From positions 1 through 13,768 of the forward strand of contig CALMMO010000359.1 of NCBI GenBank assembly GCA_937868455.1: a DNA stretch of 13,768 nt, read 5' to 3'. Below the pieces are notes generated by a model that saw only the letters and a program-made list of their open reading frames with translations, ran no database searches and was not told the DNA's origin. This DNA is from an uncultured Marmoricola sp. (GTDB lineage Bacteria > Actinomycetota > Actinomycetes > Propionibacteriales > Nocardioidaceae). The position numbers and the translations under genes are program-made. Positions 1-13,049 of the stretch are shown piece by piece; within the stretch, counting starts at the first letter, position 1; every line of letters begins with the position of its first letter.

Positions 1-1430
1 GGATCAATCAACATCGGGTGGGCCAGATCACCACGCTCATCGAGCATGCGCTTGAACCGGCGCGTGATGACTTCATGCATTGAAGCCACATCGTTTTGGC
101 CTTCGACACCTCGGATGACGAACCGGCGATACTCGCTCTTGCGGGCTAGACCGTCCTCAAAGACCACCATGGAGGCCACCACTTCGGTGCCCTGCAGGTT
201 CGAGACGTCGTAACACTCAATCCGCAACGGCGTTGTCGGAAGTTCTAGCGCTTCCCGGATCTCATCGAGCGCGATGTTGCGCGTGGTGAGGTCACTTGCT
301 CGCTTGGTCTTGTGCAACGCAAGCGACTGCTTCGCGTTGGCGGCCACGGTCTCTTGCAGCGTGCGCTTGTCGCCGCGCTTGGGAACCTTGATTGCGACCT
401 TGCTTCCCCGGGCCTCGCTGAGCAACTGGGACAGCACTGCAGAGTCGTCGGGAAGTGCCGGGACCAGAATCTCTCGCGGGATGGCCTGATTGTCCTCTCC
501 TGCGTACAACTGCAAGAGAAAGTCACCCACCAGCGCCGGGGTGTCACTGTCTTCGACCCGATCGGCAACCCAGCCGCGTTGCCCCTTGACCCGCCCACCT
601 CGCACATAGAACACCTGCACCGCGACCTCAAGGGGATCTTCAGCCAGGGCGAGCACGTCAGCATCGGTGCCATCGCCAAACACAATGGCTTGCTTTTCTA
701 GTGCCTTGTTCAGAGCGCCGAGATCGTCGCGCAGCCGAGCCGCCTTCTCGAAATCGAGCGCTTCCGACGCGGCGTACATCTGCTTTTGCAGGCGCTTGAC
801 GAAGGCGGAGGTGTTGCCGGCGACGAAATCGCAGAAGTCTTCAACAATCGCACGGTGTTCTGCTGCGCTCACCCGACCGACGCAGGGAGCACTGCACTTG
901 TCGATGTAGCCCAACAAACAGGGCCGATCGACTTGCGTGGCTCGCTTGAAGACTCCGTTGCTGCAGGAGCGCATCGGGAAGACCCGCAGCAACTGATCGA
1001 CTGTCTCGCGGATCGCCCATGCGTGGCTATAGGGCCCGAAGTACCTCGTGCCTTTGCGTTTGGCTCCCCTGCCCACGTGCACCGTGGGGAATTCATCGCC
1101 AACAGTGACAGCTAGCCACGGATAGGACTTGTCGTCGCGGTATTTGACATTGAATCGCGGGTCGAACTCCTTGATCCAGGAGTACTCCAGTTGCAGCGCC
1201 TCGACCTCCGTCGCCACCACAGTCCAGTCAACGGAGGCAGCCGTGGTCACCATCGTTGCGGTCCGCGGATGCAGTCCCCCGATGTCTTGGAAGTACGACG
1301 AAAGCCTGGACCGAAGGTTCTTAGCTTTACCGACGTAAATCACCCGGCGCTGCGCATCACGAAACCGGTAGACACCAGGATCGGTGGGAATCGACCCGGG
1401 TTTGGGTCGAAAACTCAGGTCCTGGGTCAC
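1..1430 (-). CDS. uvrC: UvrC, excinuclease ABC subunit C (partial, N-terminal 476 codons)
   Basis: UvrC makes the 3' and 5' incisions around a lesion after UvrA and UvrB have located it. The reading frame is open to the left edge, so the C-terminal end (rest of the RNase H-like nuclease and the helix-hairpin-helix DNA-binding region) is missing. Seen: a GIY-YIG nuclease domain (GVY at residues 19-21, YVGKAKNLR at 32-40, conserved Glu in TEVEAL near 77), a cysteine group C156, C171, C179, C183 spaced much like the Fe-S ligands reported for E. coli UvrC, a UvrB-interaction (UVR) motif at about 210-243, and the start of the RNase H-like domain with CYDVSN (D408). The GTG start at 1430 overlaps the TGA of the upstream Rieske gene (GTGA), so translation is probably coupled. 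UvrC proteins are usually a little over 600 residues; about three quarters is present. The family assignment is very secure. Confidence 0.97.
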
Positions 1431-1846
1431 AGGGTCACAATAAGCGAATCCCCATCCACCTTCAGATCAACCTTGCCAAGCGCGCTGGTGGCGGGACCTT
1501 TGACCGCAGCACCGTCTGCGACTGAGAACTGGCTACCGTGCAGCGGACAGGTCATGACCCCATCAGCAATCTTGTTGATAGCAAATCCCTGGTGAGTGCA
1601 CAGCGCTGAAAATGCCAAGAAGGTGCCCTTGGTTGGCTGGGTCACGATCACCTTGGCATCGGTGTAAATCACGCCCCCACCAACCGGCACCTCTGAGGCG
1701 CTCCCGAGTGTGACTGACTTTGACGCCGGGGTCTTCCCCGAGTCCTGAGGCGTCTGGCTCGTGCCACAACCTGAGAGTGCGAGCACTGCACAACCAAGGG
1801 CGCCTTGGAAAACAATCCGTCTGGTAGGGATTTGTGGATGTGTCAT
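1427..1846 (-). CDS. Rieske [2Fe-2S] lipoprotein-like protein
   Basis: A 139-residue protein with a Rieske domain: C83-T-H85 and C100-P-L-H103 are the four cluster ligands, about 15 residues apart. The N-terminus has paired arginines (TRR at 8-10), a hydrophobic stretch and a lipobox LSGC with C27 as the acylation site, so it is probably exported by the Tat route with its cofactor and anchored to the outer face of the membrane as a lipoprotein. A flexible Ser/Thr/Gly/Pro linker (about 28-45) follows. It is much shorter than the QcrA subunit of the bc1 complex and has no oxygenase domain, so it is a stand-alone electron carrier of unknown partner. It lies directly upstream of uvrC with a 4-base GTGA overlap. 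The ATG start is preceded at 6 bases by TAGGGT, which suggests a leaderless transcript covering this gene and uvrC. The fold is sure; the role is not known. Confidence 0.93.
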
Positions 1847-1852
1847 GCGCCG

Positions 1853-1858
1853 ACCCTA
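1853..1858 (-). promoter_or_regulatory. Candidate -10 hexamer of the Rieske-uvrC transcript
   Basis: On the minus strand TAGGGT stands 6 bases before the ATG of the Rieske gene, with no Shine-Dalgarno sequence between. This spacing places the transcription start at or next to the start codon, as in leaderless actinobacterial mRNAs. No clear -35 was found. Confidence 0.5.
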
Positions 1859-1897
1859 AACCTGGCGTCCAACCCGAGCTGGGCAGCCCTAGCCGGC

Positions 1898-1931
1898 TCA
1901 AGGGACCGCTGGGTGGGGAGCAGTCCCTTGA
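1898..1931 (-). terminator. Hairpin after the first secreted-protein gene
   Basis: Arms TCAAGGGAC and GTCCCTTGA are perfect complements and are extended by GCT/AGC across one unpaired position, leaving an 8-base loop. In minus-strand RNA the odd position becomes a U-G wobble, giving a 13-pair stem, while in plus-strand RNA it would be a C-A mismatch. This favours a function for minus-strand transcription. There is no U-tract, so termination would not be a textbook intrinsic one. It lies between the secreted-protein gene ending at 1968 and the Rieske gene. Confidence 0.55.
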
Positions 1932-1967
1932 AGCGACATGAACCGTGCTCGCACCGCGCTCCAGCAA

Positions 1968-2498
1968 CTAAGGCGCAGTGGATGCATCGCCCGTGCGAAG
2001 TGCCCATGAGCCCATGACGTAAGTCTTCGAACTGTTCGTTGAGGTGAGCATCAAGATCATGCGCGAGTTGCCAACTCCAGCCAGACCAGTGACAGGGTTA
2101 AGCACGCGGTATTCGCGGCCCCCTCCGCTGTAATCAGCATGGTGGACATAGATGCACAACCAGCCGGTTTGCGTCACTTGACCGACACCAGGACATTGGG
2201 TGGTGTACGGCGCGCCCTCATCGATCACCGACGTGCGGTGGTCCCGGATGGCATACTTCATCTTTCGCGGCAATTTGATGCTTTGAACGTCCCAGGCGGC
2301 AGCGCCGCCTCCGAGCGCAAACTCCCCACGCAAGACTCTGTTGGGGCCAAGCGCGCCCCTGGAGTTCGGGTGTGCCGAAGACAGAGACGCTGAGACGACT
2401 GGCCCGCCGATCAGCCCGACCGAAATGATCACTGATGCGACGATCACTCGAAAGTCGCGCAACGCGTTGCGAAAGCCGATGTTTGTGTGCTGCTCCAT
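1968..2498 (-). CDS. Small secreted protein, paralogue C of a three-gene tandem family
   Basis: Family not recognised. 176 residues. An N-terminal basic segment is followed by a hydrophobic core (about 18-34) and a plausible signal peptidase I site after VSA near residue 37, so the mature protein should be extracellular or periplasm-side. It aligns without gaps to paralogues A and B up to its last residue: shared blocks include RGEFALGGG / KGEFALGGG, QCPGVGQV, GVGNSRM and GSWA-RTGDASTA. C102 and C115 are conserved in all three and could form a disulphide. Sequence identity to A and B is about half, so this is the oldest copy. It lacks the Gly/Ser/Lys-rich tail of A and B. The ATG at 2498 is the only plausible start; the ribosome site is weak (GGAGAG lies about 18 bases away). 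Followed by a hairpin at 1898-1931. No function is inferred beyond secretion. Confidence 0.85.
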   Translation of the reverse strand: MEQHTNIGFRNALRDFRVIVASVIISVGLIGGPVVSASLSSAHPNSRGALGPNRVLRGEFALGGGAAAWDVQSIKLPRKMKYAIRDHRTSVIDEGAPYTTQCPGVGQVTQTGWLCIYVHHADYSGGGREYRVLNPVTGLAGVGNSRMILMLTSTNSSKTYVMGSWALRTGDASTAP

Positions 2499-2600
2499 AG
2501 CGCAGGCCCCGATTTCTCTCCTGGATGCCGCTATTCAACCCCAACTCAAGCGCAAACTACCTCCAGAATTCGTTCCTGAACACCGTTTGGGTCAAAAGAG

Positions 2601-2630
2601 GGTGGGGCCGAGTAGACGCTCGACCCCACC
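2601..2630 (-). terminator. Intrinsic terminator of secreted-protein gene A
   Basis: Two 12-base arms (2601-2612 and 2619-2630) flank a 6-base loop. On the minus strand the arms pair fully with one U-G wobble and are followed by CTCTTTTG; on the plus strand the same position is a C-A mismatch. The stop codon of gene A lies 15 bases before the hairpin. Confidence 0.8.
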
Positions 2631-2644
2631 TTGTGCGACGCCAG

Positions 2645-3211
2645 TTACTTGACCGACCCCGCCTTGCCTGATCCACCTGACTGGCGGGCAGTGGATGCAT
2701 CGCCAGTGCGCACAGCCCATGAACCGACGACGAAGGTGGCACTTCCGCCATTGCCCTTCAACAAGAACACCATGCGTGAATTGCCGACGCCGAAGCCGCC
2801 CGTCATTGGATTCACCAGCTGGAAATTGGGCGTGCCGCCGTTGTAGTTGGCGTAACGCACGTAGACACAGACAAAGCCTTGAGGGTTCACCTGGCCAACG
2901 CCGGGGCACTGGGCCGTGTAAGGGCCACCGGGGGCGATGTACTGGTAGCGGTCTCCGCTAATGCGGTACTTCATCGTCTTAGGCAACTTGATGTCGTCAA
3001 CGTCCCAAGCTGACGGGCCACCGCCAAGAGCGAATTCACCCTTCATCACCTTGTTGGCAGGCAGACCAGAGCGGTCAGCCTGGTGCGCGGCAGACAATGT
3101 AGCCGAAGCGACCGGAGCCCCAATCAGGCCCACCGAGATGATGACCGAGGCAGCAACGACGCGAATATCTCGCATCGCATTTCGAACTGAACCGAAAACT
3201 GACTTGCGCAT
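2645..3211 (-). CDS. Small secreted protein, paralogue A
   Basis: Family not recognised. 188 residues from the ATG at 3211, which has AGGAG seven bases upstream; an upstream ATG at 3262 in the same frame lacks this site and falls in a hairpin, so it is rejected. Signal peptide: basic n-region with RNAMRDIR, hydrophobic core about 18-34, cleavage likely after ASA near 37. The mature part holds the conserved blocks KGEFALGGG (57-65), QCPGVGQV (101-108), GVGNSRM (141-147) and GSWAVRTGDASTA, with Cys at 102 and 115 as a possible disulphide, then a short tail rich in Ser, Gly and Lys. It differs from paralogue B at only six residues (44, 71, 79, 83, 85, 87); residues 88-188 are identical, and so is the DNA. 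It arose with B by tandem duplication. Secretion is well supported; function is unknown. Confidence 0.88.
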   Translation of the reverse strand: MRKSVFGSVRNAMRDIRVVAASVIISVGLIGAPVASATLSAAHQADRSGLPANKVMKGEFALGGGPSAWDVDDIKLPKTMKYRISGDRYQYIAPGGPYTAQCPGVGQVNPQGFVCVYVRYANYNGGTPNFQLVNPMTGGFGVGNSRMVFLLKGNGGSATFVVGSWAVRTGDASTARQSGGSGKAGSVK

Positions 3212-3254
3212 GATCAAACTCCTAGAAGAGATCGCGGCATCCACTTCGAATGCC

Positions 3255-3271
3255 CACCTCACGCTGAGGTG
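3255..3271. promoter_or_regulatory. Perfect inverted repeat in the leader of gene A
   Basis: CACCTCA-CGC-TGAGGTG, a 7-base perfect inverted repeat about 45 bases before the start of gene A. The same element stands at 4057-4073 before gene B, and a related palindrome CACCTAGGTG lies at 3313-3322. It could be an operator or an RNA hairpin. Paralogue C has no such element. Confidence 0.4.
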
Positions 3272-3315
3272 CGATGTCAGCTAGGAGCCGGTCAGCAGCC
3301 GCCTGATACATCCAC

Positions 3316-3350
3316 CTAGGTGCGAACACGCAAGAGCTTGAGAAATTGCC
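3316..3350 (-). pseudogene. Relic of the 3' end of uvrA carried by the duplication
   Basis: About 29 of 35 bases match 4118-4152, the last codons and stop of uvrA. Read in the uvrA frame it still encodes QFLKLLRVRT and a stop, against [10 protein letters not shown] and a stop in uvrA. Similarity stops near 3350. It marks where the duplicated segment was cut, inside uvrA, and shows that the copy next to uvrA (gene B) occupies the ancestral position. Confidence 0.85.
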
Positions 3351-3402
3351 AGGCGAAAACTACGCCCAGAGCACATTCCTCAATAGCCTTCGGACAAGAC
3401 AA

Positions 3403-3430
3403 GTGGGGCCGAGCGATCGCTCGACCCCAC
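3403..3430 (-). terminator. Terminator hairpin of secreted-protein gene B
   Basis: Arms of 11 bases (3403-3413 and 3420-3430) around CGATCG. As at 2601-2630, the single non-Watson-Crick position is a U-G wobble only in minus-strand RNA. It is followed on that strand by TTGTCTTG, a weaker U-rich tail than in the other copy. The stop codon of gene B is 16 bases away. Confidence 0.7.
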
Positions 3431-3446
3431 CCATGTCCAACGTGGG

Positions 3447-4013
3447 CTACTTGACCGACCCCGCCTTGCCTGATCCACCTGACTGGCGGGCAGTGGATGC
3501 ATCGCCAGTGCGCACAGCCCATGAACCGACGACGAAGGTGGCACTTCCGCCATTGCCCTTCAACAAGAACACCATGCGTGAATTGCCGACGCCGAAGCCG
3601 CCCGTCATTGGATTCACCAGCTGGAAATTGGGCGTGCCGCCGTTGTAGTTGGCGTAACGCACGTAGACACAGACAAAGCCTTGAGGGTTCACCTGGCCAA
3701 CGCCGGGGCACTGGGCCGTGTAAGGGCCACCGGGGGCGATGTACTGGTAGCGGAACCCTGCGATGGGGTACTTCATCTTCTTGGGCAACTTGATGTCGTC
3801 AATGTCCCAAGCTGACGGGCCACCGCCAAGAGCGAATTCACCCTTCATTACCTTGTTGGCAGGCAGACCAGAGCGGTCAGCGGGGTGTGCGGCAGACAAG
3901 GTAGCCGAGGCGACCGGCGCCCCAATCAGGCCTACCGAGATGATGACCGAGGCAGCAACGACGCGAATGTCTCGCATCGCATTTCGAACTGAACCGAAAA
4001 CTGACTTGCGCAT
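3447..4013 (-). CDS. Small secreted protein, paralogue B
   Basis: Family not recognised. 188 residues from the ATG at 4013, preceded by AAGGAG with a 7-base gap; the in-frame ATG at 4064 is rejected because it has no such site and lies in the inverted repeat. Same architecture as paralogue A: signal peptide with core about 18-34 and likely cleavage after ASA near 37, conserved Cys 102 and 115, glycine-rich blocks, and a Ser/Gly/Lys tail. Differences from A are P44, I71, K79, P83, A85 and F87, with four of the six inside residues 79-87. It starts 104 bases after the stop of uvrA and is transcribed in the same direction, so read-through from uvrA is possible, although the leader carries its own palindromes. 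Probably the parent of copy A because it adjoins intact uvrA. Confidence 0.88.
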   Translation of the reverse strand: MRKSVFGSVRNAMRDIRVVAASVIISVGLIGAPVASATLSAAHPADRSGLPANKVMKGEFALGGGPSAWDIDDIKLPKKMKYPIAGFRYQYIAPGGPYTAQCPGVGQVNPQGFVCVYVRYANYNGGTPNFQLVNPMTGGFGVGNSRMVFLLKGNGGSATFVVGSWAVRTGDASTARQSGGSGKAGSVK

Positions 4014-4056
4014 GAGCAGACTCCTTGAAGAGATCGCGGCATCCACTTCGAATGCC

Positions 4057-4073
4057 CACCTCACGCTGAGGTG
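4057..4073. promoter_or_regulatory. Perfect inverted repeat in the leader of gene B
   Basis: CACCTCA-CGC-TGAGGTG, 44 bases before the start of gene B and 45 after the stop of uvrA. It could act as a weak terminator for uvrA (no U-tract seen), as an operator, or as a leader hairpin. Additional CACCT/AGGTG half-sites lie at 4102 and in CACCTAGGTG at 4115-4124, which contains the stop codon of uvrA. Confidence 0.4.
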
Positions 4074-4117
4074 CGATGTCAGCTAGGAGCCAGTCAGCAG
4101 CCACCTGATACATCCAC

Positions 4118-6964
4118 CTAGGTGCGAATAAGCAACGGCTTCAGAAATTGTCCGGTTGCGCTTTCGTCCGTTTGGGCGATCTGCTCGGGGGTGCCTTCTG
4201 CCACCACCATGCCGCCGCGGCTGCCACCCGAGGGGCCCATGTCGATGATCCAGTCAGCGGTCTTGACGACATCGAGGTTGTGTTCGATCACCAACACCGT
4301 GTTTCCCTGGTCAGCCAGGCGTCCGAGTACGACGAGCAACTTGCGAATGTCCTCAAAGTGCAAGCCGGTGGTCGGCTCATCAAGCACATAGACAGTGCGT
4401 CCAGTTGAGCGTTTCTGGAGTTCAGAGCTGAGCTTGACCCGCTGGGCTTCCCCACCAGAAAGCGTGGTCGCGGGTTGGCCCAATCGGACGTATCCCAATC
4501 CGACTTCCACCAGAGTTTGCATGTGTCGCGCGATGGCCGGGATAGCGGCAAAGAAGTCGACTGCCTCTTCGATAGGCATGTCGAGCACTTCAGCGATTGT
4601 CTTGCCTTTGTAGTGGACCTCGAGAGTCTCGCGGTTGTACCTCGCGCCGTGGCACACCTCGCACGGCACGTAGACGTCAGGGAGGAAGTTCATCTCGATC
4701 TTGATCGTGCCGTCACCAGAGCAGGCTTCGCAGCGCCCGCCTTTGACATTGAAGGAGAACCTGCCCTGCAAATAGCCACGCATCTTGGCCTCGGGAGTGG
4801 AGGCAAAGAGTTTGCGGATGTGGTCGAAGACGCCGGTGTAAGTGGCTGGGTTGCTGCGCGGGGTGCGACCGATCGGTGACTGGTCGACATGGATCACCTT
4901 GTCGACATGCTCGAGGCCGGTGATCTTCGTGTGGCGCCCAGGCACGGTGCGAGCGTTGTAAATCTCTTTGGCCAATGAGGTGTAGAGAATGTCGTTCACC
5001 AGCGTCGACTTCCCGCTGCCACTGACTCCAGTCACCGCGACAAACAGGCCCAGCGGGAACGACACATCAATGTTGCGCAGGTTGTTCTCTTTGGCGCCAT
5101 GCACGGTCAATGCTCGTGCGGGATCGCGCGGTCGACGTACGGCGGGCAACGGGATCTGACGACGACCCGAGAGGTATAGGCCAGTTTGAGAGTCGGGGTG
5201 CGCTAGCAATCCCTTCACCGGCCCGGCGTAGACCACCTCACCGCCGTGTTCGCCAGCGCCTGGACCAATGTCGACCACCCAGTCGGCCATGCGAATGGTG
5301 TCTTCGTCATGCTCGACCACGATCAGGGTGTTGCCCAGGTTCTTGAGCCGAACCAGGGTTTCAATCAAGCGCTGATTGTCACGCTGGTGCAGGCCGATAG
5401 AAGGCTCGTCGAGCACATAGAGCACGCCAACCAGACCGGCCCCGATTTGGGTGGCCAAGCGGATGCGTTGGGCTTCGCCGCCCGACAGCGACCCGCTGGG
5501 GCGGTTGAGCGAGAGGTAGTCCAAACCGACATCGAGAAGGAAGTTGAGCCGCTCCAAAATCTCCTTGAGCACACGCTCGGCAATCTGCTTCTCACGTGGG
5601 GTCAGCTCAAGGGTGCTCAGGAAGTCTGCGGTTTCGCTGATCGACATTGAGCACACTTCGGCAATGTTGCGACCGCCCATCGTGACCGAGCGCGACACAG
5701 CTTTGAGCCGCGAACCGTTGCAGGAAGGGCAAGGCACTTCACGCATGAAGCCCTCGAAGCGCTCGCGAGAGGTGTCAGACTCCGCTTCGCGGTGGCGACG
5801 CTCGATGTAGGGAATCACGCCTTCAAATTGCGTGTAGTAAGACCGCTCGCGGCCATAGCGGTTCTTGTGCCGCACATGCACCTTGGTGCCGACGCCGTGC
5901 ATCACCGCAAATTGATGCCGTGCATTGAGGTCGCGCCATGGGGTGTCGATGTCGAACCCAAGTTCGTGACCGAGCGCGTCCAGCAACCGGGTGAAGTATT
6001 CGCTGACTTGCGCACTGGTCCATGGCTGGATCGCACCTTCGCGCAAGGTGGCCTCGGGGTTGGCGATGACGAGTTCGGGATCCACCTCCATGCGAGTGCC
6101 CAGACCGTGACACTGCGGGCACGCGCCGAAAGGTGAGTTGAACGAAAAGCTGCGAGGTTCGAGTTCGTCGGTGTCGAGGGTGTGCTCGTTGGGGCACGCC
6201 ATCTTTTCGGAGAACTTCGCCTCACGCCCCGCCTCACCTTCGGGTACGTCGACGAAATCGAAGACGACGAGCCCACCAGCCAACGTCAGCGCAGTCTCGA
6301 CAGAGTCAGTGAGTCGTCGTTTGGACGATGCCTTCGCTGAAAGCCGATCGATGACGACCTCGATCGTGTGCTTCTTCTGCTTATCGAGCTTGGGCGGGTC
6401 ATCGAGCGTGTGAGTCTCCCCGTTGACGCGGACCCTGGAGTAGCCCTGCGTTTGCAGTTGCCGGAACAACTCCAGATATTCGCCCTTGCGCCCGCGGATG
6501 ACCGGAGCCAGCACTTGAAAGCGAGTGCTCTCGGGGTACTGCAAGATGCGGTCGACAATCTGCTGCGGGGTCTGGCGTTCGATGGGCGATCCACACTCGG
6601 GGCAGTGCGGTCGTCCGGCGCGTGCGTAGAGCAACCGCAGGTAGTCATAGACCTCGGTGATGGTGCCGACCGTCGAGCGAGGGTTCTTGCTCGTTGACTT
6701 CTGGTCGATGGACACCGCAGGAGAAAGGCCCTCGATGAAGTCCACATCTGGCTTGTCCATCTGCCCCAGGAACTGGCGTGCATAGGCCGAGAGCGACTCG
6801 ACGTACCGCCGCTGGCCCTCGGCGAAGATGGTGTCGAATGCCAGACTCGATTTGCCCGAACCTGACAACCCGGTGAACACGATGAGCGAGTCGCGCGGCA
6901 ACTCCAACGACACGTCTTTGAGGTTGTGTTCGCGTGCGCCGCGGATGATGAGTTTGTCAGCCAC
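4118..6964 (-). CDS. uvrA: UvrA, excinuclease ABC subunit A
   Basis: UvrA is the dimeric ABC-type ATPase that finds bulky DNA lesions and loads UvrB. 948 residues, the usual length. Two ATPase modules are complete: Walker [10 protein letters not shown] at 32-40 (K38) with signature LSGGE at 493-497 and LDEP at 518-521, and Walker [10 protein letters not shown] at 646-654 (K652) with LSGGE at 835-839 and LDEPTTG at 861-867. Zinc sites are seen as C257 with C282-PQ-C285, and as C745-EA-C748 with C768-EV-C771. The GTG start at 6964 gives the canonical [15 protein letters not shown] start; only a weak GAGAG ribosome site is present. A LexA box and a -10-like hexamer lie upstream, so SOS induction is expected. 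Divergent from the MBL hydrolase; followed by the secreted-protein cassette. Confidence 0.99.
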
Positions 6965-8177: not shown

Positions 8178-8873
8178 GTGAACGCCTTTGCCCGGGTCAC
8201 TAAGCACCCATCCGCCATCTTGCTGGGAGTCCAGTTACTCAGCGTGATGGCCTATCCGTTCATGGAGGACACTGCGGTCGGGCGCGCTGCTTTTGGGGTG
8301 CTCGGTGTCGTCGTGCTCGGGGTTGCCGTGTGGGCGGTGCGAGCAAGTCCAGCTCTCACCTGGGTTGCAGGTTTGCTCGGCGTACCTGTCGTCGTACTCA
8401 CGATCCTTGAGGGGATGTGGCCGCATAACTCCGACATCCACCTGGTCTCAGGCATCTTGCACGCGGCGTTCTACGCCTACACCGCTTACGCGATGCTCCG
8501 CTACTTGCTCGCCGACACCCGCATCACCGCGGATGAGTTGTTTGCCGTGGGGGCCGCATTCACGGTGGTCGCATGGTTCTTCGCTTATGTTTACGGCGTA
8601 GTTCAGATCTTGGCGCCAGGGTCATTCACTGCCTATGCGAACCCTGCAGAGCCACGGTCGTGGATGGAGTTGTTGTTCTTGTCCTTCACCGTGCTCACGA
8701 GCACCGGCCTATCCGATGTGACGCCAGTTTTGGGGCATGCCCGCGCGGTAGTCATGCTTGAGCAAGTCACTGGACTGATGTACGTCGCACTCGTGGTCTC
8801 CCGCGCGGTCGGCTTGACACTTAACCCAGCCGTACGTGCCGCAGAACACTCTGCGGGCAACGACAACGATTGA
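8178..8873 (+). CDS. Ion-channel-like membrane protein with degenerate selectivity filter
   Basis: 231 residues, mostly hydrophobic. Segments about 13-28, 35-53, 60-78, 87-110 and 121-145 look membrane-spanning, followed by a pore-like unit: a short helix (162-172), TSTGLSD at 174-180, VTP, and a final membrane helix (188-212). The last part resembles the pore loop and inner helix of the two-TM potassium channel domain (Ion_trans_2), where T-V-G-Y-G-D would be expected; here the filter reads S-T-G-L-S-D, so the GYG triplet is missing. It may pass another ion, be non-selective, or be a regulatory relative. No cytoplasmic ligand-binding domain. The GTG start follows a TACGGT hexamer by 7 bases. 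It precedes psd by 25 bases but psd seems to have its own promoter. Confidence 0.75.
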   Translation: MNAFARVTKHPSAILLGVQLLSVMAYPFMEDTAVGRAAFGVLGVVVLGVAVWAVRASPALTWVAGLLGVPVVVLTILEGMWPHNSDIHLVSGILHAAFYAYTAYAMLRYLLADTRITADELFAVGAAFTVVAWFFAYVYGVVQILAPGSFTAYANPAEPRSWMELLFLSFTVLTSTGLSDVTPVLGHARAVVMLEQVTGLMYVALVVSRAVGLTLNPAVRAAEHSAGNDND

Positions 8874-10502: not shown

Positions 10503-10521
10503 CAGTTACGCGTTGTAACTG
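10503..10521. terminator. Hairpin at the convergent pssA/kshB ends
   Basis: CAGTTAC-GCGTT-GTAACTG, a perfect 7-pair stem starting one base after the pssA stop. It covers the stop and last codons of kshB. No long U-tract on either side, so it is a candidate bidirectional terminator or 3'-end stabiliser. Confidence 0.5.
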
Positions 10522-11606
10522 ATCTTCACTCTCGGGCTCAACGCGGTGGCCTGACAGGCCAAACGGATGCCCTCGCGCAGGTCGTCTTCCTCAAGGACCT
10601 CGTTGTGGTTCATCGCCAAGTCACCTTCAAGCACCACGCACGCGCAGGCCGAGCACTGCCCTGCCTTGCAGGAGTACGGCGCCTCGACGCCCTTAGACGT
10701 CAAGAAGTCCAACAAGGGCTGCTGACCGTCCCAGTCGTCAAAGGTGTAGTCGGTGTCATCGAGATGGGCCTCAACCGTGACCGGTCCGAACGCGACTGGC
10801 GCACCCTCACTGGATGCAGCGTCTTCGAGTGAACTATCAGCGGCGGCTTCCCTTGCCGCAGTGAATTCGGCCATCTCGGGCACGTCGCCAAATGGGTTGC
10901 CGCCCAAAGAAACGAAACGCTCCTGGAGGCGGCGCGAGCGGGGCCACCCCATGTCTTTGAGCACTCCCGTCACGGCATCCATGAAAGGCGCGGGGCCACA
11001 GACCATCGAATTGAAGTCAGGGAAGTTCGCCGCAAAGGCGCGCAGTGAGTCTCGTGATGGGAGGCCTTGGAGGCTCTCTAGCCAGTGAATCAACACGAAC
11101 CGATCGGGGTATTGACTCTGCAATTCACGAAGAACCGAAGCGAAGATCACCGACTGCTCATCACGGTTGGCATAGACCAATACAACGCGGTTGTTGTGTT
11201 CGTGCAACGCAGTGCGCGCGATCGAGAGCACCGGGGTGATGCCCGAACCGCCGGCGAAGAGCAGCAGGTCAGACTCCCACTCTTTGGGGGAGAAGATCCC
11301 CGACGGAGGAATGACACGCAGTTGGCTGCCTGCCTGAACGTTGTCGCAGATCCAGTTGGAGGCGTATCCCCCGACGGTGCGCTTGACGGTCACCTGCCAA
11401 CGATCCTCGTGTGGGGAGGATGAGAGTGAATAGCTTCGGGCCACCAGACCGGTCTGCTCAGAAGGCACGGCCAGGGTGAGGAATTGGCCCGGGAGATAGG
11501 CGAACTCTGCCTTAAGCACCTCGGGCACATCAAAGACCACCGACAGCGCCTCATCGGTCTCGTTGACCACCTCAGCGACGCCTACGACGTATGACTCAGT
11601 ACCCAT
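10506..11606 (-). CDS. kshB: 3-ketosteroid-9-alpha-monooxygenase reductase component
   Basis: KshB passes electrons from NADH through FAD and a plant-type [2Fe-2S] cluster to the Rieske oxygenase KshA, which hydroxylates C9 of 3-keto steroids and triggers opening of ring B. 366 residues from the ATG at 11606. Domains in order: FAD-binding (RSYSLSS at 58-64), NAD-binding (GGSGITP at 119-125, CGPAPFM at 203-209), an Ala/Glu-rich linker (about 247-272), and a C-terminal ferredoxin domain with C313, C318, C321 and C351. The frame continues to a TTG at 11651, but that start lacks a ribosome site and lies inside the preceding small gene. The ATG chosen overlaps that gene by 11 bases. Closely related reductases serve other ring oxygenases; the adjacent kshA makes KshB the best call. 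Confidence 0.92.
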   Translation of the reverse strand: MGTESYVVGVAEVVNETDEALSVVFDVPEVLKAEFAYLPGQFLTLAVPSEQTGLVARSYSLSSSPHEDRWQVTVKRTVGGYASNWICDNVQAGSQLRVIPPSGIFSPKEWESDLLLFAGGSGITPVLSIARTALHEHNNRVVLVYANRDEQSVIFASVLRELQSQYPDRFVLIHWLESLQGLPSRDSLRAFAANFPDFNSMVCGPAPFMDAVTGVLKDMGWPRSRRLQERFVSLGGNPFGDVPEMAEFTAAREAAADSSLEDAASSEGAPVAFGPVTVEAHLDDTDYTFDDWDGQQPLLDFLTSKGVEAPYSCKAGQCSACACVVLEGDLAMNHNEVLEEDDLREGIRLACQATALSPRVKISYNA

Positions 11607-11895
11607 CAATTGCCCCGATCGAGATCGCGCCGTCAGCAACTGCTCGCTCAATGGAGGAGCGCAACCGAGGGCATGGCTCAGCTATGTGTCTCCCACCGGC
11701 GAGCCGCTCTGCTTTGGCGAACTCGGGGCAGTGGGTGAAGTCGTGGTGACGCCATTGGATCGAGGTGTGCTGCTCGGAGTTCTTCTTCACCCCGACCGTG
11801 ACGGTGCAATCAAGGCAAGCCACATCGACGAGTCGGGCCTCGAGGTAGAGGTGCTGATCGCTTCGAGTCGACTCAGACAGTTCGTAGAGCGACAT
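11596..11895 (-). CDS. Four-cysteine protein encoded between kshA and kshB
   Basis: Family not recognised. 99 residues, soluble. The ATG at 11895 overlaps the kshA stop by one base (TGATG) and the gene ends 11 bases inside the start of kshB, so all three are translationally linked in one operon. Cysteines sit at 27 and 30 (C-L-D-C), 56 (HCPEF) and 75 (PCPRL), a CxxC plus two CP motifs, with His 43, 50, 51, 55 and 70 nearby; this could bind a metal or an Fe-S cluster or form disulphides. A CPEFAKAERL block and an Arg-Ser-rich helix (77-90) follow. A 125-residue frame on the opposite strand (11563-11940) would be antisense to both ksh genes and is rejected. Position suggests a role with the Ksh enzyme or its substrate, but this is inference. 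In M. tuberculosis an uncharacterised gene, Rv3527, follows kshA; homology was not tested. Confidence 0.75.
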   Translation of the reverse strand: MSLYELSESTRSDQHLYLEARLVDVACLDCTVTVGVKKNSEQHTSIQWRHHDFTHCPEFAKAERLAGGRHIAEPCPRLRSSIERAVADGAISIGAIDGY

Positions 11896-13049
11896 CAGCT
11901 CACCGGCGCGGCGTCCGGTGCCGCATTGGCGAGGTTTTGAGCGACTTCGGCGCGCCAGTACTCATTGGCCTTGGTGGTGTCGACCTCGAACTCAAACCGA
12001 TCGGTCATGTCTTCGCTGATGTCGGCCACGTCGACGTAGAACTGTTCGTACCAACGCCGCATCTGGTAGACCGGACCGTCTTCCTCGCACAGCAGGGGGT
12101 TTTGGATGGGGGCTTTGTTCAGCCAGATGTTCACATCCTGCATGAACCCTTCAGCGAACAATTGCGTGTAGCGCTCCCCCACCCACTTGGCGGTCTGGTC
12201 ATCAAGACCAGCAGCCTTCTTCACCTTCAAGCCGAACTGCAGCACGAAGGAGTTGGGGCCAGTGGGGATATGGCAGTTGATCAACACCACATCGGTGATG
12301 AAGCCTTTGTAGTCATTGTTGAGCCAGTTGATCATGAATGAGGGACCGAAGTAGGTCGCGTCTGACTTCAGCAGCAGGTTCTCATCGCCGTAGCCCTGTG
12401 CGGTCTTGTCGGGACGCCCAGTGGACTCCATGAACTGGCTAGCCATGTGGCCCTCAAACACGTTGCGGAACTTCAGCGGGAAGGCGAAGTGGATGTAGTA
12501 GAAGTGCGCCATGTCGACGACGTTGTCGACGATCTCACGACAATGTGCGGTCGGCACGTCGAGGCGATTCCAACTCCAGTCGGTGTAGGCATCGGAGTCC
12601 ATGATGTCGTCCAACTCAGGCGGCGCCACGCTCATGTCGGGAGCCGAACCCTCGGGGTCATGCCAGATCATCAACAGACCGTTGCGTTCCATCGCGTGGT
12701 AGGTCTGAGTCTTGGCTCGCAGCGGCACTCGGCGGGCGTAAGGAATCGACTTGCACTTGCCATCGCCGTTCCAGCGCCAGTCGTGGAAGGGGCAAGCCAC
12801 CTCGTCGCCCTTGACGCTGCCTTGGGTCAAATCGCCACCCATGTGCCTGCAGTAGGCATCGATGACCTTCAACTGACCTGCGGTGTCGGCCCACACCACC
12901 AACTTGCCACCAAAGGCACGCACCTCATGAGGTTTGCCGTCGCGGAACTCCGCGGCTGGGCCAAGACAGTGCCAACCACGCGCAAAACGCGTTGGCGTGC
13001 CGCCAGCGTCGAGTTGGCGTTCTTGGGTCGTTGCGGTGTCAGGGCTCAT
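11895..13049 (-). CDS. kshA: 3-ketosteroid-9-alpha-monooxygenase oxygenase component
   Basis: KshA is the Rieske-type non-haem iron oxygenase that hydroxylates C9 of androstadienedione-type steroids or their CoA-linked precursors, leading to cleavage of ring B. 384 residues, the usual size. The N-terminal Rieske domain has C67-R-H69 and C86-P-F-H89 in the family context YCRHMGGDL and VACPFHDWRW. The catalytic iron ligands are H182 and H187 in DMAHFYYIH and D305 in FMQDVNIW. FGPSFMINWL (234-243) and RRWYEQFYVDVADI near the C-terminus are also typical of KshA. The ATG at 13049 has a full AGGAGG site 5 bases upstream. It is the first gene of the kshA-small protein-kshB operon and lies next to a KstR operator. 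The match to mycobacterial KshA is strong from memory. Confidence 0.96.
   Translation of the reverse strand: MSPDTATTQERQLDAGGTPTRFARGWHCLGPAAEFRDGKPHEVRAFGGKLVVWADTAGQLKVIDAYCRHMGGDLTQGSVKGDEVACPFHDWRWNGDGKCKSIPYARRVPLRAKTQTYHAMERNGLLMIWHDPEGSAPDMSVAPPELDDIMDSDAYTDWSWNRLDVPTAHCREIVDNVVDMAHFYYIHFAFPLKFRNVFEGHMASQFMESTGRPDKTAQGYGDENLLLKSDATYFGPSFMINWLNNDYKGFITDVVLINCHIPTGPNSFVLQFGLKVKKAAGLDDQTAKWVGERYTQLFAEGFMQDVNIWLNKAPIQNPLLCEEDGPVYQMRRWYEQFYVDVADISEDMTDRFEFEVDTTKANEYWRAEVAQNLANAAPDAAPVS

Follow-up and report, generated by a model that had tools for sequence, protein, structure and literature searches.

Three tandem genes (g1, g2 and g3), located beside uvrA in an uncultured Marmoricola sp., encode proteins whose C-terminal part, or head, is predicted to be a beta-sandwich of the discoidin/Helix-agglutinin (H-type lectin) fold. 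The genes were analysed within a window of 13,768 nt (contig CALMMO010000359.1, one contig of a 2.50-Mb, 540-contig assembly). As judged from their sequences, they do not form a separate family, since the heads are shared with a wider actinobacterial family. With slightly better than even confidence we read their products as exported, trimeric, glycan-binding heads of lectin fold, closed by a disulfide and devoid of a stalk, whose genes were inserted at uvrA and of which g2 and g3 have been homogenised.

As shown in Table 1, the genes follow uvrA on the minus strand in the order g3, g2, g1, succeeded by a small Rieske gene and by uvrC, which lies on the same strand below position 1430 and was identified by its NCBIfam match. 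No other copies of the family were found in the assembly. The alignment of the three proteins is free of internal gaps, g1 lacking a 12-residue stretch at the C-terminus, and C102 and C115 are common to all of them. Their N-termini, read by eye, resemble signal peptides in that a basic beginning is followed by a hydrophobic segment and, with residue 37 as its last position, an A/V-S-A site, and the proteins are presumably exported. Thus, the initial annotation of this stretch was right in describing three adjacent genes for gap-free proteins of 176–188 residues, each with an apparent signal peptide and an invariant Cys102/Cys115 pair, placed between uvrA and a Rieske-uvrC pair (NCBIfam for uvrA and uvrC, Pfam for the Rieske gene). 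Its statement that no family could be recognised, and the profile search and structure prediction it had proposed, need a more differentiated answer. No curated family was found: g1, g2 and g3 had no Pfam match at E <= 1, no NCBIfam model scored above its cut-off (one sub-threshold match for g1, E 0.23), and no collagen-like Gly-X-Y repeats (PF01391) were detected in the window proteins. However, the predicted fold is recognisable as lectin-like, and the heads belong to a family, mostly stalked, of which 117 members were listed.

Table 1. Features of the g1–g3 locus (positions are those of the window).
Feature	Position	Strand	Basis
uvrA, upstream neighbour	4118..6964	minus	NCBIfam NF001503, 1580 bits
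g3 leader, 99/104 nt identical to g2 leader (3212-3315)	4014..4117	minus	sequence comparison
g3, 188-aa (amino acid) presumably secreted head protein, first after uvrA	3447..4013	minus	open reading frame (ORF) list, translation, alignment, AlphaFold2 (AF2) model
g3 signal-peptide-like N-terminus, residues 1-37	3903..4013	minus	translation read by eye; low pLDDT (predicted local distance difference test) in model
g3 head domain, residues 51-173, predicted beta-sandwich of discoidin/H-type lectin fold	3495..3863	minus	AF2 model, structure comparison
Hairpin after g3	3403..3430	minus	folding vs shuffles, z -5.0
Decayed copy of last 38 nt of uvrA, stop included, between g3 and g2	3316..3353	minus	local alignment score 24
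g2, 188-aa copy, 97% identical to g3	2645..3211	minus	ORF list, translation, alignment
g2 head domain (predicted)	2693..3061	minus	gap-free alignment to g3
Hairpin after g2, then T-rich stretch	2601..2630	minus	terminator scan; folding vs shuffles, z -3.6
g1, 176-aa diverged copy, 57% identical to g3	1968..2498	minus	ORF list, translation, alignment
g1 head domain (predicted)	1980..2348	minus	gap-free alignment to g3
Hairpin after g1	1898..1930	minus	folding vs shuffles, z -3.9
Small Rieske protein, downstream neighbour	1427..1846	minus	Pfam PF00355, 1e-11

A first protein search found four proteins, and a search with the head of a relative listed as Nocardioides plantarum (encoded by genome G072, of the same taxonomic family as the source genome) returned that protein itself and one more. 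After the profile had been widened with head domains from Nocardioidaceae, 117 family proteins were detected at E <= 0.01 among 5,259 candidates, a count that includes g1 (as P0006) and near copies. Nearly all of them are unnamed or called 'hypothetical protein', two take their names from collagen repeats, and an organism name is attached to eight (Nocardioides, Nocardioidaceae or Solirubrobacterales). In a genome scan one host was found for P0013, a Nocardioides metagenome-assembled genome, and no named host for P0003. Among the papers listed by full-text searches of the literature, whose reach left most subscription journals outside, none dealt with this family or locus.

The family shares the C-terminal head motif CPGxG...GxLCVY...GxWAV. 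In an alignment of 118 rows, from which P0002 (a near copy), P0007 (chimera-like), P0093 (short) and P0121 (head seemingly disrupted) were left out, G58, C102 and C115 are invariant, while G163 is present in 117 rows and W165 in 115; the window proteins carry all five residues. The Cys pair is therefore a hallmark of the aligned family, although its presence in the search profile itself calls for caution, and Cys102 and Cys115 probably form a disulfide. A metagenomic protein, P0007, has a listed PF04286 domain, while another part of it matches the second half of the head; it is perhaps an assembly chimera.

Repetitive stalks, tagged with permissive patterns of our own (Gly-X-X, IKxxSVT-like, xADxxxG-like and YTKxxSDAKY-like), precede the head in 98 of the 118 rows, and a collagen Pfam domain is listed in five of the 117 proteins. 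A stalk thus appears to be common in the family rather than defining, as 20 rows have none, five of these being of the window type. In g3 the part before the head is only about 49 residues long, as compared with a median of 105.5 in the aligned rows. Because the nearest listed relatives of the window type, P0008 and P0009, are longer at the N-terminus and carry stalk-like repeats there, the window type probably lost its stalk, rather than the others having gained it late.

In structure comparisons with two AlphaFold head models, the discoidins, the Helix agglutinins and the tips of R-pyocins and phage tailspikes consistently ranked first, with modest scores, and the predicted beta-sandwich can be superposed on Helix pomatia agglutinin or discoidin. 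The structure comparison showed no score gap below the lectin rows, and 15 rows outside the window type also lacked a stalk tag; for these two reasons we slightly lowered our estimate of the overall reading. As regards membership by sequence, the H_lectin domain (PF09458) had no match in nine relatives scanned, nor at E <= 0.001 in the whole assembly, window proteins included, and hhalign against eight of nine extracted actinobacterial PF09458 segments (L090 was left out), a shallow test, gave probabilities of 2.3% over 32 columns and 0.15% over 10. A sequence search of the PDB with the family profile yielded only unrelated chains (best E 0.22). Since the sequence and hhalign tests for PF09458 fail, we do not claim membership of the H-type lectins: the modelled head probably has the same fold and probably works like them.

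Among the known proteins of this fold class, the H-type lectins (Helix pomatia and Helix aspersa agglutinins, the C-terminal domain of discoidin I/II, and SLL-2) have no significant sequence or profile similarity to the window heads, which differ from them in the conserved CPGxG...GxLC cysteine pair and in which no sugar-binding residues were identified. The tips of R-pyocin fibres and of the LKA1, phi297 and AP22 phage tailspikes, of the same fold class, are heads that follow a fibrous stalk, as in the relatives of the window proteins; in contrast, the window proteins themselves are apparently exported bacterial proteins without a stalk and not parts of phage particles. Collagen-like surface proteins of the Legionella Lcl type were compared by their stalk, a collagen-like stalk being found in some relatives, whereas the window copies have no collagen repeats. 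Lcl is described, in excerpts of PMC11162425, as an extracellular protein recognising sulphated glycosaminoglycans.

By analogy with the fold, we propose that each gene encodes a small exported protein whose mature part would be a single beta-sandwich head, closed by the Cys102-Cys115 disulfide, and that the heads may trimerise and bind carbohydrate at the loop end; the collagen-like stalks of some relatives likewise suggest three chains. The ligand might be the envelope polysaccharide of the cell itself, or a surface or a neighbouring cell. In the absence of a stalk, the window version would be a short secreted or surface-attached lectin-like unit; the role at the cell surface suggested in the initial annotation is plausible.

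Alternatively, the head might have the lectin fold but bind no sugar, acting as a trimerisation cap or as a structural subunit of the surface, and the window copies would then be small structural proteins of the envelope, an explanation that we regard as unlikely but worth serious attention. The conserved G58, Cys pair, G163 and W165 look like residues that keep the fold and not like a binding site; in the relatives, stalks of collagen-like or tail-fibre-like type would presumably need a trimerising end; and, according to excerpts of PMC5701251, oligosaccharide binding by the LKA1 tip had not been demonstrated at that time. However, the short N-terminal parts of the window copies offer no stalk to cap, and PMC6116203 describes the nearest structural neighbours of the R-pyocin tip as proteins for which binding or degradation of surface polysaccharide has been shown or is presumed. 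That the fold serves some other secreted function (a protein-binding adhesin, an inhibitor or a stabilising domain) seems improbable to us; the window proteins are stand-alone heads, attached to no enzyme.

The fold shared with phage tips also raises the question of whether the genes originated in the tail fibre of a phage or tailocin and encode secreted decoys or remnants. Among the relatives, P0012 has a stalk with matches in 23 phage records, some of them annotated as tail fibre, and PHROGs matches were obtained for two further relatives with stalks, in one case to several tail-fibre families; for Propionibacterium acnes phages, excerpts of PMC3094311 mention a protein that has a weak H-type lectin domain and lies close to a collagen-like tail protein. 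These matches do not extend to the heads in the window: the ten listed phage matches of P0012 cover only residues 23-75, i.e. the stalk, and no record covers 80% of that protein, while neither g3 nor g1 had a PHROGs match at E <= 0.1 and no phage gene occurs among the identified neighbours in the window. We consider a phage origin of the window proteins very improbable and rejected it, g3 being without a match among 50,697 phage records and without a close relative in IMG/VR (pattern scan). A plasmid search with P0013, the one relative used for it, gave no match.

The genus survey of the uvrA locus covered 24 genomes, all with some Rieske match. In 19 of them uvrA lies beside the Rieske gene, at 20 loci (two in one genome) and with a spacing of 22–359 nt between uvrA and the Rieske match, which is too close for a family gene. 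Three family genes occupy the gap in two genomes, i.e. the source genome and G095. For the remaining three (G043, G004 and G066) the fetched stretch had no uvrA beside the Rieske gene, and no family member was detected by whole-genome search. This search gave matches in 21 of the 341 genomes from the taxonomic family, in 4 of 26 genera (E <= 0.01), although the one in G096 (locus L064), which spans 35 positions and contains a stop, appears spurious and some others are weak; within the genus only the source genome and G095 were matched. A match in G103 (E 2e-4 in one search) was not recovered in the whole-genome search of the family. In a class sample 3 of 394 genomes were matched, all three from the source genome's own taxonomic family, and in a phylum sample 6 of 396, the source genome included. 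On the evidence of these genomes, the family genes at uvrA are an insertion in one branch of the genus.

The initial annotation had called secreted proteins unexpected in this DNA repair neighbourhood. A function of the proteins in DNA repair or in the response to UV is, in our view, barely credible: its sole support is the position between uvrA and uvrC, and against it stand the signal-like N-termini, the hairpin 3' of each gene, the occurrence of relatives at other loci, and the 19 genomes without family genes in the gap. We found no link between the window proteins and DNA repair and rejected this role; the neighbourhood looks like an accident of insertion, in which we could find no meaning.

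Once a family gene had entered the gap in one branch of the genus, the locus would have reached three copies, as the multiplication in place suggested earlier implies. Since the remnant of uvrA lies between g3 and g2, the duplicated unit of 802 bp evidently reached into uvrA, and the remnant is best read as the scar of a tandem duplication; its alignment score was reached by none of 500 single-base shuffles. The likeness of g2 and g3 is, however, not simply that of a fresh duplication. Their outer flanks have diverged, their leaders are nearly identical, and all 20 differences in the 564 coding nt fall within the first 260, none within the last 304 (probability about 2e-7 under an even spread, with the boundary chosen after the fact). 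Because the flanks diverged while the last 304 coding nt are identical, the tract looks like the product of gene conversion; it can alternatively be an assembly merge of near-identical tandem copies in this assembly of 540 contigs.

In a 15-row tree, for which the program warned of long branches, the copies of the source genome together with P0004 and P0005 split from those of G095 (branch support 96/93). As the copies cluster by genome, they appear to have either multiplied separately in each genome or been homogenised within each, and the tree cannot tell which. For g2 and g3 the diversification proposed in the initial annotation was not borne out, the ratio of nonsynonymous to synonymous substitutions between g2 and g3 (dN/dS, Nei-Gojobori method, NG86) being about 0.26 (0.021/0.082), with no overall sign of diversifying selection; four of the six amino-acid changes cluster at residues 79-87.

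Each gene is followed by a strong hairpin, as first noted. The hairpins are real, that of g1 reaching a z of only -1.1 when a longer surrounding stretch is folded, and their role in termination is putative because the terminator scan found no more sites than shuffles (2 versus 2.5 expected), with the g2 hairpin alone qualifying. In G095 (L010, 5490-7606) a strong hairpin follows each of the three copies, the first two being near-identical in sequence, as if gene and hairpin had been duplicated together. A scan of 1400-4300 revealed no sigma-70-type promoter, which says little in an actinobacterium, and no Rfam family reached its gathering score in the window. The leaders of g3 and g2 contain a perfect 7-3-7 inverted repeat (4057-4073 and 3255-3271, respectively), which is absent from the g1 leader and has no further exact copy in the assembly. 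It was rejected as a regulon site: the single two-mismatch match elsewhere in the assembly equals the count of the reversed-pattern control, and the stretch folds no better than shuffles.

Beyond this locus, the plus strand encodes a 231-aa ion-channel-like protein (8178-8873; Ion_trans_2, PF07885, 6.6e-8; no NCBIfam family at E <= 1e-10), directly preceding a phosphatidylserine decarboxylase-like gene. On the minus strand beyond the phospholipid genes lies a two-gene set (10509-13049). One gene (10509-11603) encodes a flavin/2Fe-2S reductase-like protein, PaaE-like by a match below the cut-off, and the other (11898-13049) a Rieske oxygenase-like protein whose match to a sterol monooxygenase is sub-threshold; the pair is suggestive of a steroid hydroxylase of the KshA/KshB type. 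By eye, look-alikes of these ORFs occur in the same order in G095.

Taken as a whole, the initial annotation is partly supported, and the present analysis defines a motif for proteins listed almost only as hypothetical in the sources used, assigns them a likely fold and suggests a function that can be tested. It links the family to the tip-on-stalk design of phage tail fibres and of animal and amoebal lectins. A bolder view, which we hold tentatively and with less than even confidence, is that Actinobacteria possess a large unnamed family of self-made fibre-like proteins, with a stalk and a disulfide-closed discoidin-fold tip, acting as exported glycan receptors outside phages, and that the tip alone, in a single branch of Nocardioidaceae, became detached from the stalk and was inserted between uvrA and its neighbour, where it gave rise to a small concerted array of stand-alone lectins. 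The array offers a small, readable case of tandem duplication, probably with gene conversion, beside a housekeeping gene, with the uvrA-derived scar still visible. If the tips bind sugars, they would open up a so far untapped supply of bacterial lectins and give a clue to the contacts of these actinobacteria with surfaces and with one another.
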